From Alphaproteobacteria bacterium (lineage in GTDB: Bacteria; Pseudomonadota; Alphaproteobacteria; SHVW01), in NCBI GenBank assembly GCA_009694085.1, contig SHVW01000007.1, positions 1 to 47,325 of the forward strand: a stretch of DNA of 47,325 bases. Direction: 5' to 3'. The position numbers were made by a program, and so were the translations under genes. Of this stretch, positions 1-20,001 are shown in pieces (within the stretch, counting starts at the first letter, position 1; each line of letters opens with the position of its first letter). The notes under the pieces were generated by a model. That model worked only from the letters and a program-made list of their open reading frames with translations. It had not been told where the DNA came from and did not search any database.

Positions 1-1326
1 GGCGCGTCGCGGCGAAGCTTCATGACGTTGCTCGACAGCGACCCCGCCATTGTCATTTGCGGCGTAACCAGCGGCTACGGTCAGAACGCTCACCAACGCT
101 TCACCCCGGCGGAGCGCCGCCGACATGCGACGCGCGCGCCGATTGCGGCCGGCGTTTCCTTCGGCTCGCCGCTGCCGGAACGGGTCGTGCGCACCATCGC
201 CCTGGCTCGGCTCGCCAACTTTCTGGAGGGTCACGCCGCCGTGCGTCCGCGCCTGACCGAGGCGGTGGCCGCCATGCTCGACGATGCGCGCTTGCCGCCG
301 GTCCCAGCGGACGGCAATGGCGGCGCTGGCGAGATTTTGCCGCTCACCCATTTGTTCGCCGATCTCGCCGCGCGGGTCGGCCTGGAGGAGAAAGAAGGCC
401 TGGCACTGATCAATGGCAGCCCGGTCTCGGCGGCGCTGATAGCCGATGCGGCGTTGGCGGCTTGGGTACGGCTCGACCTGGCGATGGAAGTCTTTGCGCT
501 CGCGATCGAGGCCTTCAAGGCGCCGATGGAGGCTTATGCGCCCGCTCTAGACGACCTCTGGGGCGATCCCCATGAGGCCGAGGCATTGCAGCGTATCCGG
601 CATCTTCTCGCCAGCGGCGGTACGCAGCGCCGATCTTATCAGGCGCCGGTTAGTTTCCGCATCCTTCCCCGTCACTTCGGCCGCGCGCTACGTGCGCTCG
701 CGCAGGCCGAGACGGCTGCCACGGTCTCGCTCGCCTCGGTCACGGACAACCCGGTCTATGTGCCGCCCGATGGCAAGCATCCCCACGGCCAGATTCTCAG
801 CAATGGCGGTTATCAGAACGCCATGGCCTACCCGGCGCTGGACGAGCTGGCGGCATCATGGGCCGATCTATGCCTATTGGCCGAGCGTCAGACTCACAAG
901 ATGCTGGAAGGCCGGGTGTCCCTCCTGCCCGATGGGTTGCGGACGCGGCCGGACGACGATCGCTATATGGGCGCGTTGCCCATGGCCCAGGTCGGTTTCG
1001 GCGAGCGGGCGCGCCATGCCGCCCAGCGGACTTTCCTGCCCGGCTCGGAATCCGGCGACTTCGCGCAGAACGACGTGGCGGCGCCAACTATGCTCGCCTG
1101 GTCGAAAGAGGGCGACGCGGCCCAGGCGCTGGAGGCCTGCTTGGCAATCCTTGCCGTAGTTGCGTCCCAGGCGCTTTATGTGACGGAACGGCCGGCACCA
1201 CCACAACTTGCCAACCTCCTCGCAGAGGTCCGGCAGGTCGTGCCGCCGCTAGAAAGCCAACGCATGCTAAGGCCCGACTGCGAGTGTTTGGCTCAAGCGT
1301 TCAATCGCCGAATCTTCGCGCCCTGA
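1..1326 (+). CDS. HAL/PAL-family aromatic amino acid lyase-like protein, 5' truncated by window edge, probable MIO-less
   Basis: Frame is open to base 1. Motifs ICGVTSGYG (cf. VYGVTTGFG), GLALINGSPVS (cf. ALINGT), GEILPLTHL (cf. GDLAPLAH), HPHGQILSNGGYQN. Confidence 0.8.
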   Translation, partial: GASRRSFMTLLDSDPAIVICGVTSGYGQNAHQRFTPAERRRHATRAPIAAGVSFGSPLPERVVRTIALARLANFLEGHAAVRPRLTEAVAAMLDDARLPPVPADGNGGAGEILPLTHLFADLAARVGLEEKEGLALINGSPVSAALIADAALAAWVRLDLAMEVFALAIEAFKAPMEAYAPALDDLWGDPHEAEALQRIRHLLASGGTQRRSYQAPVSFRILPRHFGRALRALAQAETAATVSLASVTDNPVYVPPDGKHPHGQILSNGGYQNAMAYPALDELAASWADLCLLAERQTHKMLEGRVSLLPDGLRTRPDDDRYMGALPMAQVGFGERARHAAQRTFLPGSESGDFAQNDVAAPTMLAWSKEGDAAQALEACLAILAVVASQALYVTERPAPPQLANLLAEVRQVVPPLESQRMLRPDCECLAQAFNRRIFAP

Positions 1327-1607: not shown

Positions 1608-4043
1608 TTAAGCGCGCAAGCGCGCGTTTTCCGGATCGAAGGGCGATTCCACAATAACCGTGGCACGACGGCGCTCGCCTAGGATTTCGATCTCCAATTC
1701 CGTACCGAGCGCGCCGAGGTCAGGGCGTACCATGCCGAGCGCCAGGGACTTGCTTAACCGCCAGCCATAGCCGCCGCTGGTGCTACGCCCCACGAGGGTT
1801 TGCCCCTGCCAGATCGGTTCGGAACCGCGGGCATCGGCGTCGGTTACGCCATGGACCTCCATGGTGACGAAGCGATTCTTGAAGCCGCGCTCGCGCCAAG
1901 CCGCTAGCGCGGCGGCACCGAAGAACGCGCCTTTGTTCAGATGAACGAAGCGGTCGAGGCCGGATTCGAGCGCGGCATACTCGATCGACAATTCTTGCGG
2001 AATCAGCCGGTACGATTTCTCCAGACGCAGGGAATCCATGGCGCGAATGCCGAAGGGTTTGAGATCGAATTCGCGGCCGGCGTCCATCAGGTGGTCGAAG
2101 ATGTAGTTCTGCATCTCCATCGGGTGATGCAGTTCCCAACCGAGTTCGCCGATGAAATTGACGCGCAGCGCCCGCGCATGGGCCGCACCGATATTGACGG
2201 TTTTGCCGGTCAGCCAGGGGAATGCCTTGTTCGACAAATCCCAGTCGGTCAAACGCTGGAGCAGATCGCGCGATCGCGGGCCGGCCAGGACGAGCACGCC
2301 ATGCTGGGTGGTGACCGTGTCCAGACGGACGCTGCCATCGGCGGGGAGGGACTTTTCCAGGTAGTCGCGGTCGTGACGCTCGAAGGCGCCGGCGCCGACG
2401 AGATAGAAATGCTGCGGTCCCTCGCGATAGACCGTGAACTCCGACCGGACGCCGCCGTTCTTCGACAACATATGCACCAAGCCGAGCCGGCCGATCTTCT
2501 GGGGCAGGCGGTTGGCAACCAAGCCGTCCAGCCAAGCCTGCGCGCCGGGGCCGGACACCTCGTATTTGGCGAAGGCCGTCATGTCGAGCAGGCCGACCTT
2601 CTCGTGAACGTGACGGCACTCATTGCCGACATTGGGGAAATAGTTGGTGCGGCGAAAGCTCCAGACGTCCTTCTGCTCGACGCCGTGGGGGGCGAACCAG
2701 TTCGGCCGTTCCCAGCCATATTTCAATCCGAACACCGCGCCCAGCGCCTTCATGCGGTCGTAACAGGGCGCCTGCTTGAGCGGCCGCGCGGCGGCGCGTT
2801 CCTCATCGGGATAGTGGATGGTGAAGACGTTGGCGTAGGCCTCTTCGTTCTTCTCGCGCAGAAAGCCGCGCCGGGCATAGGGGCCGAAGCGGCGGGGATC
2901 GACGCCCATCATGTCGACGCTGGGCTCGCCCTCGACCATCCATTCCGCCAGCTGCCAGCCGGCGCCGCCGGCTGCGGTCACGCCGAAGCTATGGCCTTCA
3001 TTGAGCCAGAAATTGCGCAACCCCCAAGCCGGGCCGACGATCGGCGAGCCGTCGGGCGTATAGCAGATGGCGCCGTTATAGGCCTTTTTGATGCCGACCT
3101 CGCCGAAGGCGGGCACGCGGTTGATCGCCGCCTCGATATGGGGAGCCAAGCGATCAAGATCTTCTTGGAACAGTTCGTACTCGCTCTCCGCGGAGGGGCC
3201 GTCGACATAGCAACAGGGTGCGCCCTTTTCGTAGGGACCGAGCAGCAGGCCGCCGTTTTCCTCGCGCATGTAGTAGGACGCGTCGCTTTCGCGCAGCACG
3301 CCCATTTCCGGCAAGCCCTGGCGCTTGCGCTCGACGATGGCGGGATGGGGTTCGGTCACCAGGTATTGATGTTCGACCGGGATGACCGGGATCTCCAGCC
3401 CAACCATTTCGCCCGTCTTGCGCACGAAATTGCCGCTGGCGGAGACCACGTGCTCGCAGACGATGTCGCCCTTGTCCGTACGCACCAGCCATTCGCCGCC
3501 GGCCTGCCGCTCGATCGCGGTGACCGTGGTGAAGCGATTGATCTCGGCGCCCAGCTTGCGCGCGCCGATCGCCAGCGCCTGGGTCAAATCGGCGGGCTGG
3601 ATATAGCCGTCCTCAGGATGCTGGATCGCGCCGATCATGCCCTCGACATTGCACAGCGGCCAGATCGCCTTGACTTCGGCCGGCGTCAGAAAACGCACAT
3701 CAATGCCGATGGTCTTGGCAACGCCGGCATAGAAACGGTATTCGTCCATGCGGTCGCGGTTGGTGGCGAGGCGGATATTTGTGACCTGCCGGAATCCGAC
3801 GGTCTGCCCGGTTTCCTGTTCGAGCGTTTTGTAAAGCGCCACCGAGTATTTGTGAATCTGGCCGACCGAATAGCTCAAGTTGAACAGGGGCAGCAGACCG
3901 GCGGCATGCCAGGTGGAACCGGAGGTCAACTCCTTGCGCTCGACCAGCGCGACGTCATGCCAACCCTTTTTAGCCAAGTGATAGAGCGTGCTCACGCCGA
4001 CCACGCCGCCGCCGATCACCACCACACGCGCATGCGATCTCAT
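1608..4043 (-). CDS. FAD-dependent oxidoreductase with C-terminal GcvT/aminomethyltransferase domain (dimethylglycine/sarcosine dehydrogenase-like)
   Basis: VVVIGGGVVGVSTLYHLAKKGW dinucleotide fold, TSGSTWHAAGL covalent-flavin-type motif, C-terminal GcvT-like region (GELGWELHHP). Start placed at MRSHARVVV. Confidence 0.9.
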   Translation of the reverse strand: MRSHARVVVIGGGVVGVSTLYHLAKKGWHDVALVERKELTSGSTWHAAGLLPLFNLSYSVGQIHKYSVALYKTLEQETGQTVGFRQVTNIRLATNRDRMDEYRFYAGVAKTIGIDVRFLTPAEVKAIWPLCNVEGMIGAIQHPEDGYIQPADLTQALAIGARKLGAEINRFTTVTAIERQAGGEWLVRTDKGDIVCEHVVSASGNFVRKTGEMVGLEIPVIPVEHQYLVTEPHPAIVERKRQGLPEMGVLRESDASYYMREENGGLLLGPYEKGAPCCYVDGPSAESEYELFQEDLDRLAPHIEAAINRVPAFGEVGIKKAYNGAICYTPDGSPIVGPAWGLRNFWLNEGHSFGVTAAGGAGWQLAEWMVEGEPSVDMMGVDPRRFGPYARRGFLREKNEEAYANVFTIHYPDEERAAARPLKQAPCYDRMKALGAVFGLKYGWERPNWFAPHGVEQKDVWSFRRTNYFPNVGNECRHVHEKVGLLDMTAFAKYEVSGPGAQAWLDGLVANRLPQKIGRLGLVHMLSKNGGVRSEFTVYREGPQHFYLVGAGAFERHDRDYLEKSLPADGSVRLDTVTTQHGVLVLAGPRSRDLLQRLTDWDLSNKAFPWLTGKTVNIGAAHARALRVNFIGELGWELHHPMEMQNYIFDHLMDAGREFDLKPFGIRAMDSLRLEKSYRLIPQELSIEYAALESGLDRFVHLNKGAFFGAAALAAWRERGFKNRFVTMEVHGVTDADARGSEPIWQGQTLVGRSTSGGYGWRLSKSLALGMVRPDLGALGTELEIEILGERRRATVIVESPFDPENARLRA

Positions 4044-8807: not shown

Positions 8808-10373
8808 ATGTCCGATGCAGCGAGCGATACCGGTTTGGCCGAGGGCGGCCGGCGCGGGCGGGGCGGTTCTTCGGCCCGGCGCGCCAAGCGCGAGCATCCC
8901 AAGGCGGTGCAGCTCCCCTATATCTCGCGCTCGATCCCGGTCATGGACGTGCTGGGCACGGAGGGGTTGGAGATCCTCGAGCACAATGCCGACACCATCC
9001 TCCATGAAATCGGCATCGAGTTTCGCGGCGACGAGGAAGCGCTTAGCCTCTGGCGCGCGGCCGGCGCCGACGTCAAGGGCGAGCGCGTGCATTTCCCACG
9101 CGGGCTGTGCCGGCAGATCATTCAGAAGTCGGCGCCGCGCGAATTCACCCAGCACGCGCGCAATCCTGGGCGCAACGTCGTCATCGGCGGCAAGACCACC
9201 GTGTTTGCGCCGGTCTATGGCCCGCCCTTCATCCGCAATCTGGACGAGGGGCGGCGCTACGCCACGATCGAGGATTTTCGCAATTTCGTGAAGCTCGCCT
9301 ATATGGCGCCGGCGATCCACCATTCCGGCGGTACCGTGTGCGAGCCCGTCGACTTGCCCGTCAACAAACGGCATCTCGACATGGTCTATGCCCACATGAA
9401 GTTCTCGGACAAGCCGTTCATGGGCTCGGTCACCCACCCGCTGCGCGCGGCCGACACGGTCGCCATGGCGGAAATCCTGTTCGGCGCCGACTTCGTCGAC
9501 CGGAACTGCGTGATCGCCAGCCTGATCAACGCCAACTCGCCCATGGTGTGGGACCAAACCATGCTGGGCGCGCTCAAATGCTACGCCAAGGCGAACCAGG
9601 CGACCGTCATCTCGCCCTTCATCCTGGCCGGCGCCATGAGCCCCGTGACCGTGGCGGGCACGCTGGCCCAGCTTTTCGCCGAGGCGCTCACGGGCATGGC
9701 ATTTGCCCAGCTCTGCCGGCCCGGCGCGCCCGTCATCTTCGGCACCTTCGCCAGCTCGATCTCCATGCAATCCGGCGCGCCCACCTTCGGCACGCCCGAG
9801 CCGACCCTGGTGCTATTCGCCGCCGCCCAGCTTGCCCGGCGCCTCGGCGTGCCCTTTCGCTCCGGCGGCGCGCTGTGCGGCTCCAAGGTCGCCGACGCCC
9901 AGGCCGCCTATGAAAGCGCCAACACCCTGCTGCCCACGCTGTTGGCCGGCACCAATTTCGTGCTCCACGCGGCGGGCTGGCTCGAAGGCGGGCTTTCCTC
10001 GGGCTACGAGAAATTCGTCATGGATTGCGACCAGCTCGGCATGATGCAGGTGCTGGCCGGCGGCGTCGATTTGACCGAGAACGGTCAGGCCTTGAGCGCT
10101 ATTCGCGAAGTCGGCCCGGGCAAACACTACCTCGGCTGCGACCACACCCAAGCCAATTTCGAAACCGCCTTCTATCGCTCTTCCATCGCCGACAACAACA
10201 GCTACGAGCAATGGCTGGCCGAGGGCAGCCAGGACGCCGCTCAACGCGCCAACAAGATCTGGAAGCAGATGTTGAAGGAATACGAAGCGCCGGAACTCGA
10301 TCCGGGGCGCGATGAGGCGCTGAAGGAATACATCGCGAAGAAGAAGGCGAGCTTTCCCGATTCGAACGTGTAG
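8808..10373 (+). CDS. trimethylamine methyltransferase (MttB) superfamily, non-pyrrolysine
   Basis: 521 aa uninterrupted; MttB-type features (VSPFILAGAMSPVTVAGTLAQ, GGALCGSKVADAQAAYES); no in-frame amber codon. Confidence 0.88.
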   Translation: MSDAASDTGLAEGGRRGRGGSSARRAKREHPKAVQLPYISRSIPVMDVLGTEGLEILEHNADTILHEIGIEFRGDEEALSLWRAAGADVKGERVHFPRGLCRQIIQKSAPREFTQHARNPGRNVVIGGKTTVFAPVYGPPFIRNLDEGRRYATIEDFRNFVKLAYMAPAIHHSGGTVCEPVDLPVNKRHLDMVYAHMKFSDKPFMGSVTHPLRAADTVAMAEILFGADFVDRNCVIASLINANSPMVWDQTMLGALKCYAKANQATVISPFILAGAMSPVTVAGTLAQLFAEALTGMAFAQLCRPGAPVIFGTFASSISMQSGAPTFGTPEPTLVLFAAAQLARRLGVPFRSGGALCGSKVADAQAAYESANTLLPTLLAGTNFVLHAAGWLEGGLSSGYEKFVMDCDQLGMMQVLAGGVDLTENGQALSAIREVGPGKHYLGCDHTQANFETAFYRSSIADNNSYEQWLAEGSQDAAQRANKIWKQMLKEYEAPELDPGRDEALKEYIAKKKASFPDSNV

Positions 10374-17556: not shown

Positions 17557-20001
17557 TCAGGCTTTGATCCGCTCGCTCCGCGGATCGTAGAGCGGCCCTA
17601 TCTGCAACCGCGCCGGCACCCGGCGGGTCGCCACTTCAAGCTCGTAGCTTCCGGTCCGGAGATAGTCGTCGCCGACGCCATCGGGATTGCGGACATATCC
17701 GAGCCCGATATTGGTCCCGACCGTATAGCCCCAGCCGCCGCTGCTCAGCCAGCCGACCCGTTCGCCATTGCGATAGATGGTCTCCCGGCCGAGTAGGGTG
17801 ACGGTTGGGTCGTCGACCGTGAAGGTGGTCAGCCGGCGAGCGAGCGATTGCCCGCGCTGGGCCTCGATCGCTTCGCGTCCCAGGAACGGCGTGTTCGCGC
17901 GCAGCTTGACGGCCCAACCCAGCCCCGCCTCGAGCGGCGTATAATCCGGCCCGATATCCGAGCCCCAGGCGCGATAGGCTTTCTCCAGGCGCAAGGATTC
18001 GATGGCGCGATAGCCAGCGTTTGCGATGCTGTGAGCCGCACCGGCCGTCATCAAAGCATCATAGACAGAGGTGGCCGAGGCCGTGGGAACATGAAGCTCC
18101 CAGCCAAGTTCTCCCACATAGGTCACGCGCAGCGCATGAACAGGCGCACCCGCGATGGCGACCGTGCGGACCCGGCCGAAGGGGAAGGCGGCATTGGACA
18201 CGTCGTCGCGCGTGACCGCTTGGAGCACATCGCGCGCCCGGGGCCCCATCAGGGATAGGGTTGCGAATTCGCCCGTCACGTCGATCAGTCGAGCGTCGCA
18301 ATCCAGCGGCAGGTTGCGCTCGATCCAATCGCGGTCATGGGTGGCAAAGGCGGTGCCCGTGACGATGTAGTAGCGGTCCTCCGCCAACCGCGAAACCGTC
18401 AGGTCGCATTCGATACCGCCCCGGCGGTTCAGCATCTGGGTATAGACGAGGCTGCCCGGTGCCCGGGTAACATCCCCGGCGCATATCCATAACAACGCAC
18501 GTTCGGCATCGCGGCCGGCCACCATGAACTTGGCGAAGCTGGTCTGGTCGAACAGCGCGACCCGTTCGCGCACGGCGCGATGCTCGCGCCCGACGGCCTC
18601 GAACCAATTGGCCCGACCGAAGCTGGGCTCGTCCTTGGCGGTTTCGCCCGTGTTGGCGAACCAATTCGGCCGTTCCCAACCGAATTTCGAGCCGAATACC
18701 GCGCCTGCGGCCTTCAATCGCTCATAGAGCGGCGAGGTTCGCCAGGGCCGCGCGGTCTCGTATTCCTCATGGGGCCAGGCGACCGTGTAGTGTTTGCCAT
18801 AGGCCTCCAAGGTGCGTGTCAGTGCAAAATCCCGGTCGCGATGAGGTTGGCCGAAACGGCGGATATCCACGGGCCAGAGATCCATAGGCGGCTCGCCCGC
18901 TGCGATCCATTCGGCCAGAGCCTTGCCCGCCCCGCCGGCGGATGCGATGCCGAAGGCATTGAAACCGGCGCCGACGTAGAAATTGGCCAGCTCCGGCGCC
19001 GCGCCCAAAATGAAATTGCCATCGGGCGTGAAAGATTCCGGGCCGTTGATGAGCTGCTTGATGCCGGCGGTCTGCAAGGCCGGTACACGGGCCAGCGCTT
19101 GGACCATCAGGGGCTCGAAATGATCCCAATTGCTGTCGAGCAGGGTGAAATGAAATCCTTCGGGAATGCCGTCGAGTGCCCAGGGAATGGGGTTGGGCTC
19201 GTAGCCGCCCATGACCAACCCACCCACTTCCTCCTTGAAATAAATCAGGCGATCGGGATCGCGCATCGTGGGCAGGTTGCGCGGCAATCCGGGAACCAGC
19301 TCTGTTACAAGGTATTGGTGCTGAACCGATTGCAGCGGTACGGAAACCCCGGCCATGGCGCCGATATCGCGCGCCCATTGCCCGCCGCAATTGACGACGA
19401 CTTCGCTATCGATATCGCCAGCTTCGGTCGACACGCCAACGGCTCGGCCCTTATCCGTACGGATCGCGGTGACTGCGCAATCCTCGAAAATGGCGACACC
19501 GGCCTGTCGCGCACCCCGAGCCAACGCCGCCGTGATGTCCGATGGGTTGGCCTGGCCGTCCGTGGGCAGGAAAACCGCACCGACCACGTCGTCGACTAAC
19601 ATAGCAGGCCACAGGTCTCGCGCCTGTTTGGCCGTCAGCACCTCGACGGCAAGGCCGAAGCTCCGCGCCGTGGTCGCCTGGCGCTCCAGTTCGATCATGC
19701 GCGCGGGCGTGCAGGCGAGCCTAAGCCCGCCCGATTGCTTCCAGCCCGTGGCCTGGCCGGTTTCCGCCTCAAGCCGCGCGTAGAGTTCGACCGAATGGGT
19801 CAGCAGCCGGGTGATATTGGCGGAGCTGCGGAGCTGGCCGACCAGGCCGGCGGCGTGAAAGGTCGAGCCGCTGGTCAGCTTCTTGCGTTCGAGCAAGACG
19901 ATGTCGCGCCAGCCGCACCGGGCCAGGTGATAGGCGGTCGAGCAACCAATGATGCCGCCACCGATAATGATGGCGCGCGCGTGGCGCGGTGGCGCGCTCA
20001 T
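17557..20001 (-). CDS. second FAD-dependent oxidoreductase/GcvT fusion (dimethylglycine/sarcosine dehydrogenase-like)
   Basis: AIIIGGGIIGCSTAYHLARCGW, TSGSTFHAAGLVGQLRSS, C-terminal GcvT-like region (GELGWELHVP); paralogous to 1608..4043. Confidence 0.9.
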   Translation of the reverse strand: MSAPPRHARAIIIGGGIIGCSTAYHLARCGWRDIVLLERKKLTSGSTFHAAGLVGQLRSSANITRLLTHSVELYARLEAETGQATGWKQSGGLRLACTPARMIELERQATTARSFGLAVEVLTAKQARDLWPAMLVDDVVGAVFLPTDGQANPSDITAALARGARQAGVAIFEDCAVTAIRTDKGRAVGVSTEAGDIDSEVVVNCGGQWARDIGAMAGVSVPLQSVQHQYLVTELVPGLPRNLPTMRDPDRLIYFKEEVGGLVMGGYEPNPIPWALDGIPEGFHFTLLDSNWDHFEPLMVQALARVPALQTAGIKQLINGPESFTPDGNFILGAAPELANFYVGAGFNAFGIASAGGAGKALAEWIAAGEPPMDLWPVDIRRFGQPHRDRDFALTRTLEAYGKHYTVAWPHEEYETARPWRTSPLYERLKAAGAVFGSKFGWERPNWFANTGETAKDEPSFGRANWFEAVGREHRAVRERVALFDQTSFAKFMVAGRDAERALLWICAGDVTRAPGSLVYTQMLNRRGGIECDLTVSRLAEDRYYIVTGTAFATHDRDWIERNLPLDCDARLIDVTGEFATLSLMGPRARDVLQAVTRDDVSNAAFPFGRVRTVAIAGAPVHALRVTYVGELGWELHVPTASATSVYDALMTAGAAHSIANAGYRAIESLRLEKAYRAWGSDIGPDYTPLEAGLGWAVKLRANTPFLGREAIEAQRGQSLARRLTTFTVDDPTVTLLGRETIYRNGERVGWLSSGGWGYTVGTNIGLGYVRNPDGVGDDYLRTGSYELEVATRRVPARLQIGPLYDPRSERIKA

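Follow-up and report, generated by a model that had tools for sequence, protein, structure and literature searches.

A MIO-less clade of the histidine ammonia-lyase fold in Alphaproteobacteria and its candidate role in betaine elimination

The truncated gene and its active-site residues

We analyzed a stretch of 47,325 nucleotides (the window) from an alphaproteobacterial genome that is 70.6% complete. Base 1 of contig C100 is also the first base of the window, which opens with a plus-strand gene (1..1326) encoding a MIO-less protein of the HAL/PAL superfamily (PF00221; E 1.2e-55 with Pfam). Its open frame covers nt 1-1323 and ends with a TGA stop codon (1324-1326). The earlier note had described a long intact reading frame, but the frame is incomplete: a relative has 36 extra residues at its N-terminus, and about 36 N-terminal residues are missing from the window protein because the contig end cuts the gene. 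The best NCBIfam matches were HutH models, with scores (155 and 146 bits) well under the respective cut-offs of 524 and 539, while the genome has its own HutH elsewhere, with the ASG triad intact. A convergent gene (1611..4025, minus strand) codes for an FAD oxidoreductase and GcvT-type protein resembling dimethylglycine/sarcosine dehydrogenases. It is kept in the sister genome, the congener G001, as is, some 7 kb away from the lyase gene, a gene (8808..10373, plus strand) for an MttB-superfamily (PF06253) methyltransferase, possibly a methylamine or betaine enzyme. A second dimethylglycine/sarcosine-dehydrogenase-like FAD and GcvT gene (17560-20001, minus strand) was 42% identical to the one at 1611-4025.

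The MIO loop reads GNGGAGE (313..333, plus strand), and the motif GGAGEILPLTH was confirmed, with GAG at nt 322-330. When aligned with HutH and ergothionase (PADGNGGA-GE vs PAKGSVGASGD), the window loop was one residue short; PADGNGGA-GEILPLTH is one residue shorter than PAKGSVGASGDLAPLAH of HutH, as it is than the loop of ASG-bearing HAL in general. The MIO triad is truly lost, as had been proposed, but by the deletion of one residue (A-S-G to A-G) and not by a plain substitution of ASG with GAG; the Gly-Ala-Gly reading depends on where the gap is placed. The aligned triad was absent from all 27 aligned sequences (A1), and the window loop contains no Ser. As for an intact Ala-Ser-Gly elsewhere in the loop, the string ASG in two clade members (PASGQVGAGE and AASGQGGAGE) lies upstream of the aligned triad and unconserved.

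The pocket was mapped to GkHAL, for which mutants of pocket residues have been tested (PMC11432326). On this map, Y52, N194, Q274 and R280 are present in the clade, whereas Y277 has become Val and E411 Asn or Asp. Asn138 of the window protein (412..414, plus strand) corresponds to N194, and the motif YQAPVSFR (637..660, plus strand) contains Tyr213, Gln214 (Q274), Val217 (for Y277/Y280) and Arg220 (R280; nt 658-660), the roles again being those of PMC11432326. Together with Gly110, Glu111 and Asp358, these residues are invariant in the 27 aligned members, which agrees with the earlier observation that the NGS Asn and the SFR Arg remain. The Val seen before the SxR motif (nt 649-651) replaces the second active-site Tyr (PpHAL Y280, GkHAL Y277) in 31 of 31 clade members. 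At 1066..1074 (plus strand), Gln-Asn-Asp aligns with the (Q)-Glu-Asp of HAL and ergothionase (GkHAL E411). The joint loss of Y277 and E411 is coherent, because Y277 was suggested to assist E411 in GkHAL (PMC11432326).

The first Tyr (HAL Y52/Y53) behaved differently, and the proposed loss of both catalytic tyrosines held only for the QDPY Tyr. The base Tyr, whose mutation to Phe abolishes activity in GkHAL (PMC11432326), is kept in 30 of the 31 clade members (26 of 27 in A1). The Cys20 codon TGC (58..60, plus strand) is indeed present, but private to the window contig. In the 78%-identical congener G001 codon 20 is TAC; G001 reads ATTGTCATTTACGGC at the first-Tyr site and the window reads ATTGTCATTTGCGGC. 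Tyr20Cys may be an error or a functional alteration. There is a substantial possibility, somewhat short of even, that the family is active but Tyr20Cys has inactivated or altered the window copy, or that the Cys is a sequencing or assembly error near the contig end. A single base differs, the DNA on either side matches closely and the contig end is 58 bases away; the window departs at just one further site from the columns at least 95% conserved in the other members. Against this, the dN/dS between the window and its congener (0.17) shows no sign of decay.

The clade and its relatives

Homologs at 47-78% identity were found in 16 of 385 sampled alphaproteobacterial genomes, on six other named contigs and on megaplasmids of Rhizobium jaguaris and R. 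tropici. A phylum-wide sample yielded homologs only within the same class. The existence of a conserved clade of GAG-type members, which the earlier note had proposed to look for in a tree, was borne out with 100/100 support in the superfamily tree. Given this support, the invariant residues, the dN/dS of 0.17 and the mere two column departures of the window, the clade is a family of maintained proteins and not of degenerating ones. Neither decay nor replacement is likely: Asn, Gln and Arg of the pocket have been retained, dN/dS is low and a genuine HutH scores above cut-off in 13 of the 16 carrier genomes. Plain HutH replacement was rejected on those 13 genomes, and pseudogene decay was rejected for the family and is unlikely for the window copy on dN/dS and column departures. 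One member, L174 (G489:C68), carries a TGA stop and is probably a pseudogene. The family is strongly expanded locally in the 2.7-Mb genome G087, with 11 copies in arrays of five and six (L036, L037).

The AlphaFold model adopts the HAL fold (mean pLDDT 72.8), with TM of about 0.76 to HAL, TAM and ergothionase (Foldseek); with pLDDT below 50 at residues 1-34 and 105-114, its active-site loops are too uncertain for pocket geometry. The top fold match was the TAM of Streptomyces globisporus, also among the best phmmer hits. TAM, TAL and PAL carry both the MIO and the second Tyr, whereas the clade has neither. With HutH (TIGR01225) the clade shares the fold, the equivalents of Asn194, Gln274 and Arg280 and, except in the window, that of Tyr52, but it differs in lacking ASG and in having Val for Y277/Y280 and Asn for E411. 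All 27 clade members searched fell on HutH/PAL-type NCBIfam models, far below the cut-offs, and risk being named histidine ammonia-lyases, a reaction that is very probably beyond them. None of the 27 fell on an ergothionase model, and no NCBIfam model names the clade.

Ergothionase eliminates trimethylamine from ergothioneine. The enzyme works without MIO (PMC13405746). In the ergothionase structure 6s7j, the MIO loop reads SSIGE-GDI, one residue short, and the QDPY motif is QDPL; the clade profile matched 6s7j with an E of 9.9e-26. Both ergothionase (Treponema denticola 6s7j/6s7q and Burkholderia sp. HME13) and the clade thus combine the HAL fold with the absence of MIO, a loop shortened by one residue, an aliphatic residue for the Y280-type Tyr, a conserved Arg and, the window excepted, a conserved Y53-type Tyr. 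However, they form separate lineages in the tree, with 17% identity over the fold match, and their pockets differ. The E411-type Glu is Asn in the clade, and the Lys ten residues after the Tyr, common to ergothionase and its hydratase-linked relative, is absent; the window has Ala30 and Asn357 where 6s7j and that relative have this Lys and the Glu of xxEDx. The NGS motif is kept in the clade, whereas ergothionase has SCN. Membership of ergothionase proper was rejected on the tree (own 100/100 clade) and on the pocket residues.

The superfamily tree is unrooted with long branches, and three deep lineages meet in it: the window clade, the ergothionase-containing clade and the MIO-bearing proteins, with further MIO-less groups among the latter and HAL4_L097 as a long-branch joiner. 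A branch order uniting the window clade with ergothionase is no more than a possibility in such a tree, which fits either several losses of MIO or its gain within the superfamily.

Gene neighbourhoods and the proposed reaction

In G087, the five tandem copies lie downstream of an S-methyl-thiourocanate hydratase gene (NF058531, 890.8 vs cut-off 880), with a gene resembling S-methyl-thiohydantoin desulfurase also upstream (396 vs cut-off 450); the six other copies are on another contig. The Rhizobium jaguaris gene is divergent from ErtD (760 vs 600), ErtE (575 vs 520), UbiD and UbiX; an OpuAC-type betaine ABC transporter comes after it. ErtE, UbiX, UbiD and a LysR regulator neighbor L034, and UbiD is also found beside L046 and L043. 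In G365, where HutH was not found, a HutC-like regulator, HutU and the family gene form one run, an arrangement that would suit a hercynine lyase producing urocanate. In other genera, most loci lacked an ergothioneine-type neighbour within about 10 kb. ErtD occurred in 3 of 16 carriers vs 4 of 369 other genomes (p 0.002), an association uncorrected for relatedness and treated as weak. Neither ErtD nor S-methyl-thiohydantoin desulfurase was found in the window genome (70.6% complete) or its congener (94%), and the only window-genome match to the thiourocanate-hydratase model NF058530 was the HutU beside HutH, below cut-off. The FAD/GcvT and MttB neighbours of the window gene, with unrelated genes between them, are consistent with methylamine or betaine use. 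Overall, gene context gives direction, not proof, on the substrate.

We favor, at slightly better than an even chance, the reading that the clade is a family of MIO-independent betaine (trimethylamine) lyases, set apart from ergothionase by the tree and by the pocket residues. By analogy with ergothionase, the window protein itself is most likely such a lyase, a MIO-less member of the HAL fold outside the ergothionase clade. We infer the reaction, the leaving group, the substrate and the role of each residue as follows. The protein would be an α,β-eliminating lyase acting on a substrate that already contains a good leaving group; the likeliest candidate is the trimethylammonium group of an aromatic amino-acid betaine, histidine-type or other. 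With so good a leaving group, an electrophilic MIO for amine activation would be unneeded. The Tyr equivalent to HAL Y52/Y53 would take the β proton, while Arg220, Gln214 and Asn138 would anchor the carboxylate and orient the substrate, and the products released would be trimethylamine and a urocanate-like acrylate. A substrate of this kind would explain why the base and the carboxylate anchor are retained when the electrophile and the adjacent Tyr are not. Activity of the window's own copy is less certain than that of the family, given the Cys in place of the base. The Tyr20Cys explanation is compatible with the betaine-lyase reading and was not counted against it.

More tentatively, and as a possibility rather than a probability, the alphaproteobacterial clade, with as many as 11 copies in a single genome, may be an undescribed family of amino-acid-betaine lyases that work without MIO and have diversified in substrate. 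This lineage, apart from ergothionase, would act on S-methyl-ergothioneine, hercynine or plant aromatic betaines. A search of the open literature found no description of the clade or of an S-methyl pathway. If trimethylamine is removed from histidine-type or plant betaines, these enzymes would add sources of trimethylamine and routes of betaine use in soil, root-associated and marine bacteria.

The variety of neighbours also bears on another MIO-independent chemistry, in which a group other than trimethylamine (sulfur or hydroxyl) is eliminated, or an acrylate is hydrated or isomerised, with substrates varying by subclade. UbiD/UbiX accompany L034, L043, L045 and L046, HutU accompanies L038 and S-methyl-thiourocanate hydratase L036, while many loci have none of the genes sought. 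We consider this unlikely, as the neighbours defined best are part of ergothioneine-type breakdown, a route that a homologous MIO-less enzyme opens by eliminating trimethylamine. Still less probable is a fold kept for a non-catalytic role. The clade has lost MIO together with the Y280-type Tyr and the E411-type Glu, and the window copy is also without the base Tyr, but the remaining pocket residues are invariant, 30 of 31 members have the base Tyr and an active ergothionase bears the same lesions. An enzymatic role also accords with the catabolic operons and with the tandem arrays of one genome (five and six copies). The earlier note had left a choice between a pseudoenzyme, a scaffold and a MIO-independent enzyme; the kept pocket, the ergothionase-like lesions and the catabolic clusters argue for the last, while the first two are unsupported for the family, though either is conceivable for the window copy owing to Cys20. 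An ordinary histidine or aromatic amino acid ammonia-lyase without MIO is very improbable: the G365 gene does follow HutU and a HutC-like regulator in a genome where HutH was not found, but 13 of 16 carriers have genuine HutH, the substrate-contacting Glu (E411) is Asn in the clade and a triad Ser-to-Ala change costs more than 1000-fold in HAL/PAL (PMC3903478).

MIO and the second Tyr across the superfamily

We assembled 120 superfamily proteins (63 ASG-bearing, 26 other MIO-less and 31 of the window clade). The Y280-type Tyr was kept in 63 of 63 ASG-bearing proteins, absent from 25 of the 26 MIO-less proteins outside the clade and replaced by Val in all 31 clade members. The association between MIO and this Tyr was strong, with a p of 3e-21 in the non-clade set, although the proteins are related and independent events are fewer than the counts. 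The Y53-type Tyr was retained in every protein except that of the window. If the clade is a substrate-diversified betaine-lyase family, the absence of both MIO and the Y280-type Tyr would generally mark lyases whose substrate supplies the leaving group. Should its members remove trimethylamine from histidine-type or plant betaines, the clade would also be a natural experiment on the HAL scaffold without its electrophile. MIO-dependent members can be told from MIO-independent ones by a simple two-site test that looks at triad length and at the Tyr of QDxY. The coupled loss had a sole exception: L143 (PF00221; GSVGYLGPEGH) lacks MIO yet has the second Tyr in place (QDTY).

The other MIO-less PF00221 lineages (GSxGYLTHxAH; GSIGA(A/G)DL) resemble the window clade in lacking MIO and in having Leu for the second Tyr in nearly all cases, and differ from it in loop length and clade. 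Proteins of the GSIGA(A/G)D type (L157-L160, L164, L049, L091) grouped with the ergothionase clade where sampled in the tree. The GSVGYLTHxAH lineage has a loop three residues shorter and QDAL (L131, at G495:C4:26980-28953, L132, L139, L141, L142, L156). This lineage may be the counterpart of the second hutH copy in Pseudomonas hut loci. Its genes are found no more than about 10 kb from a genuine HutH and immediately adjoin it in G495 and G596.
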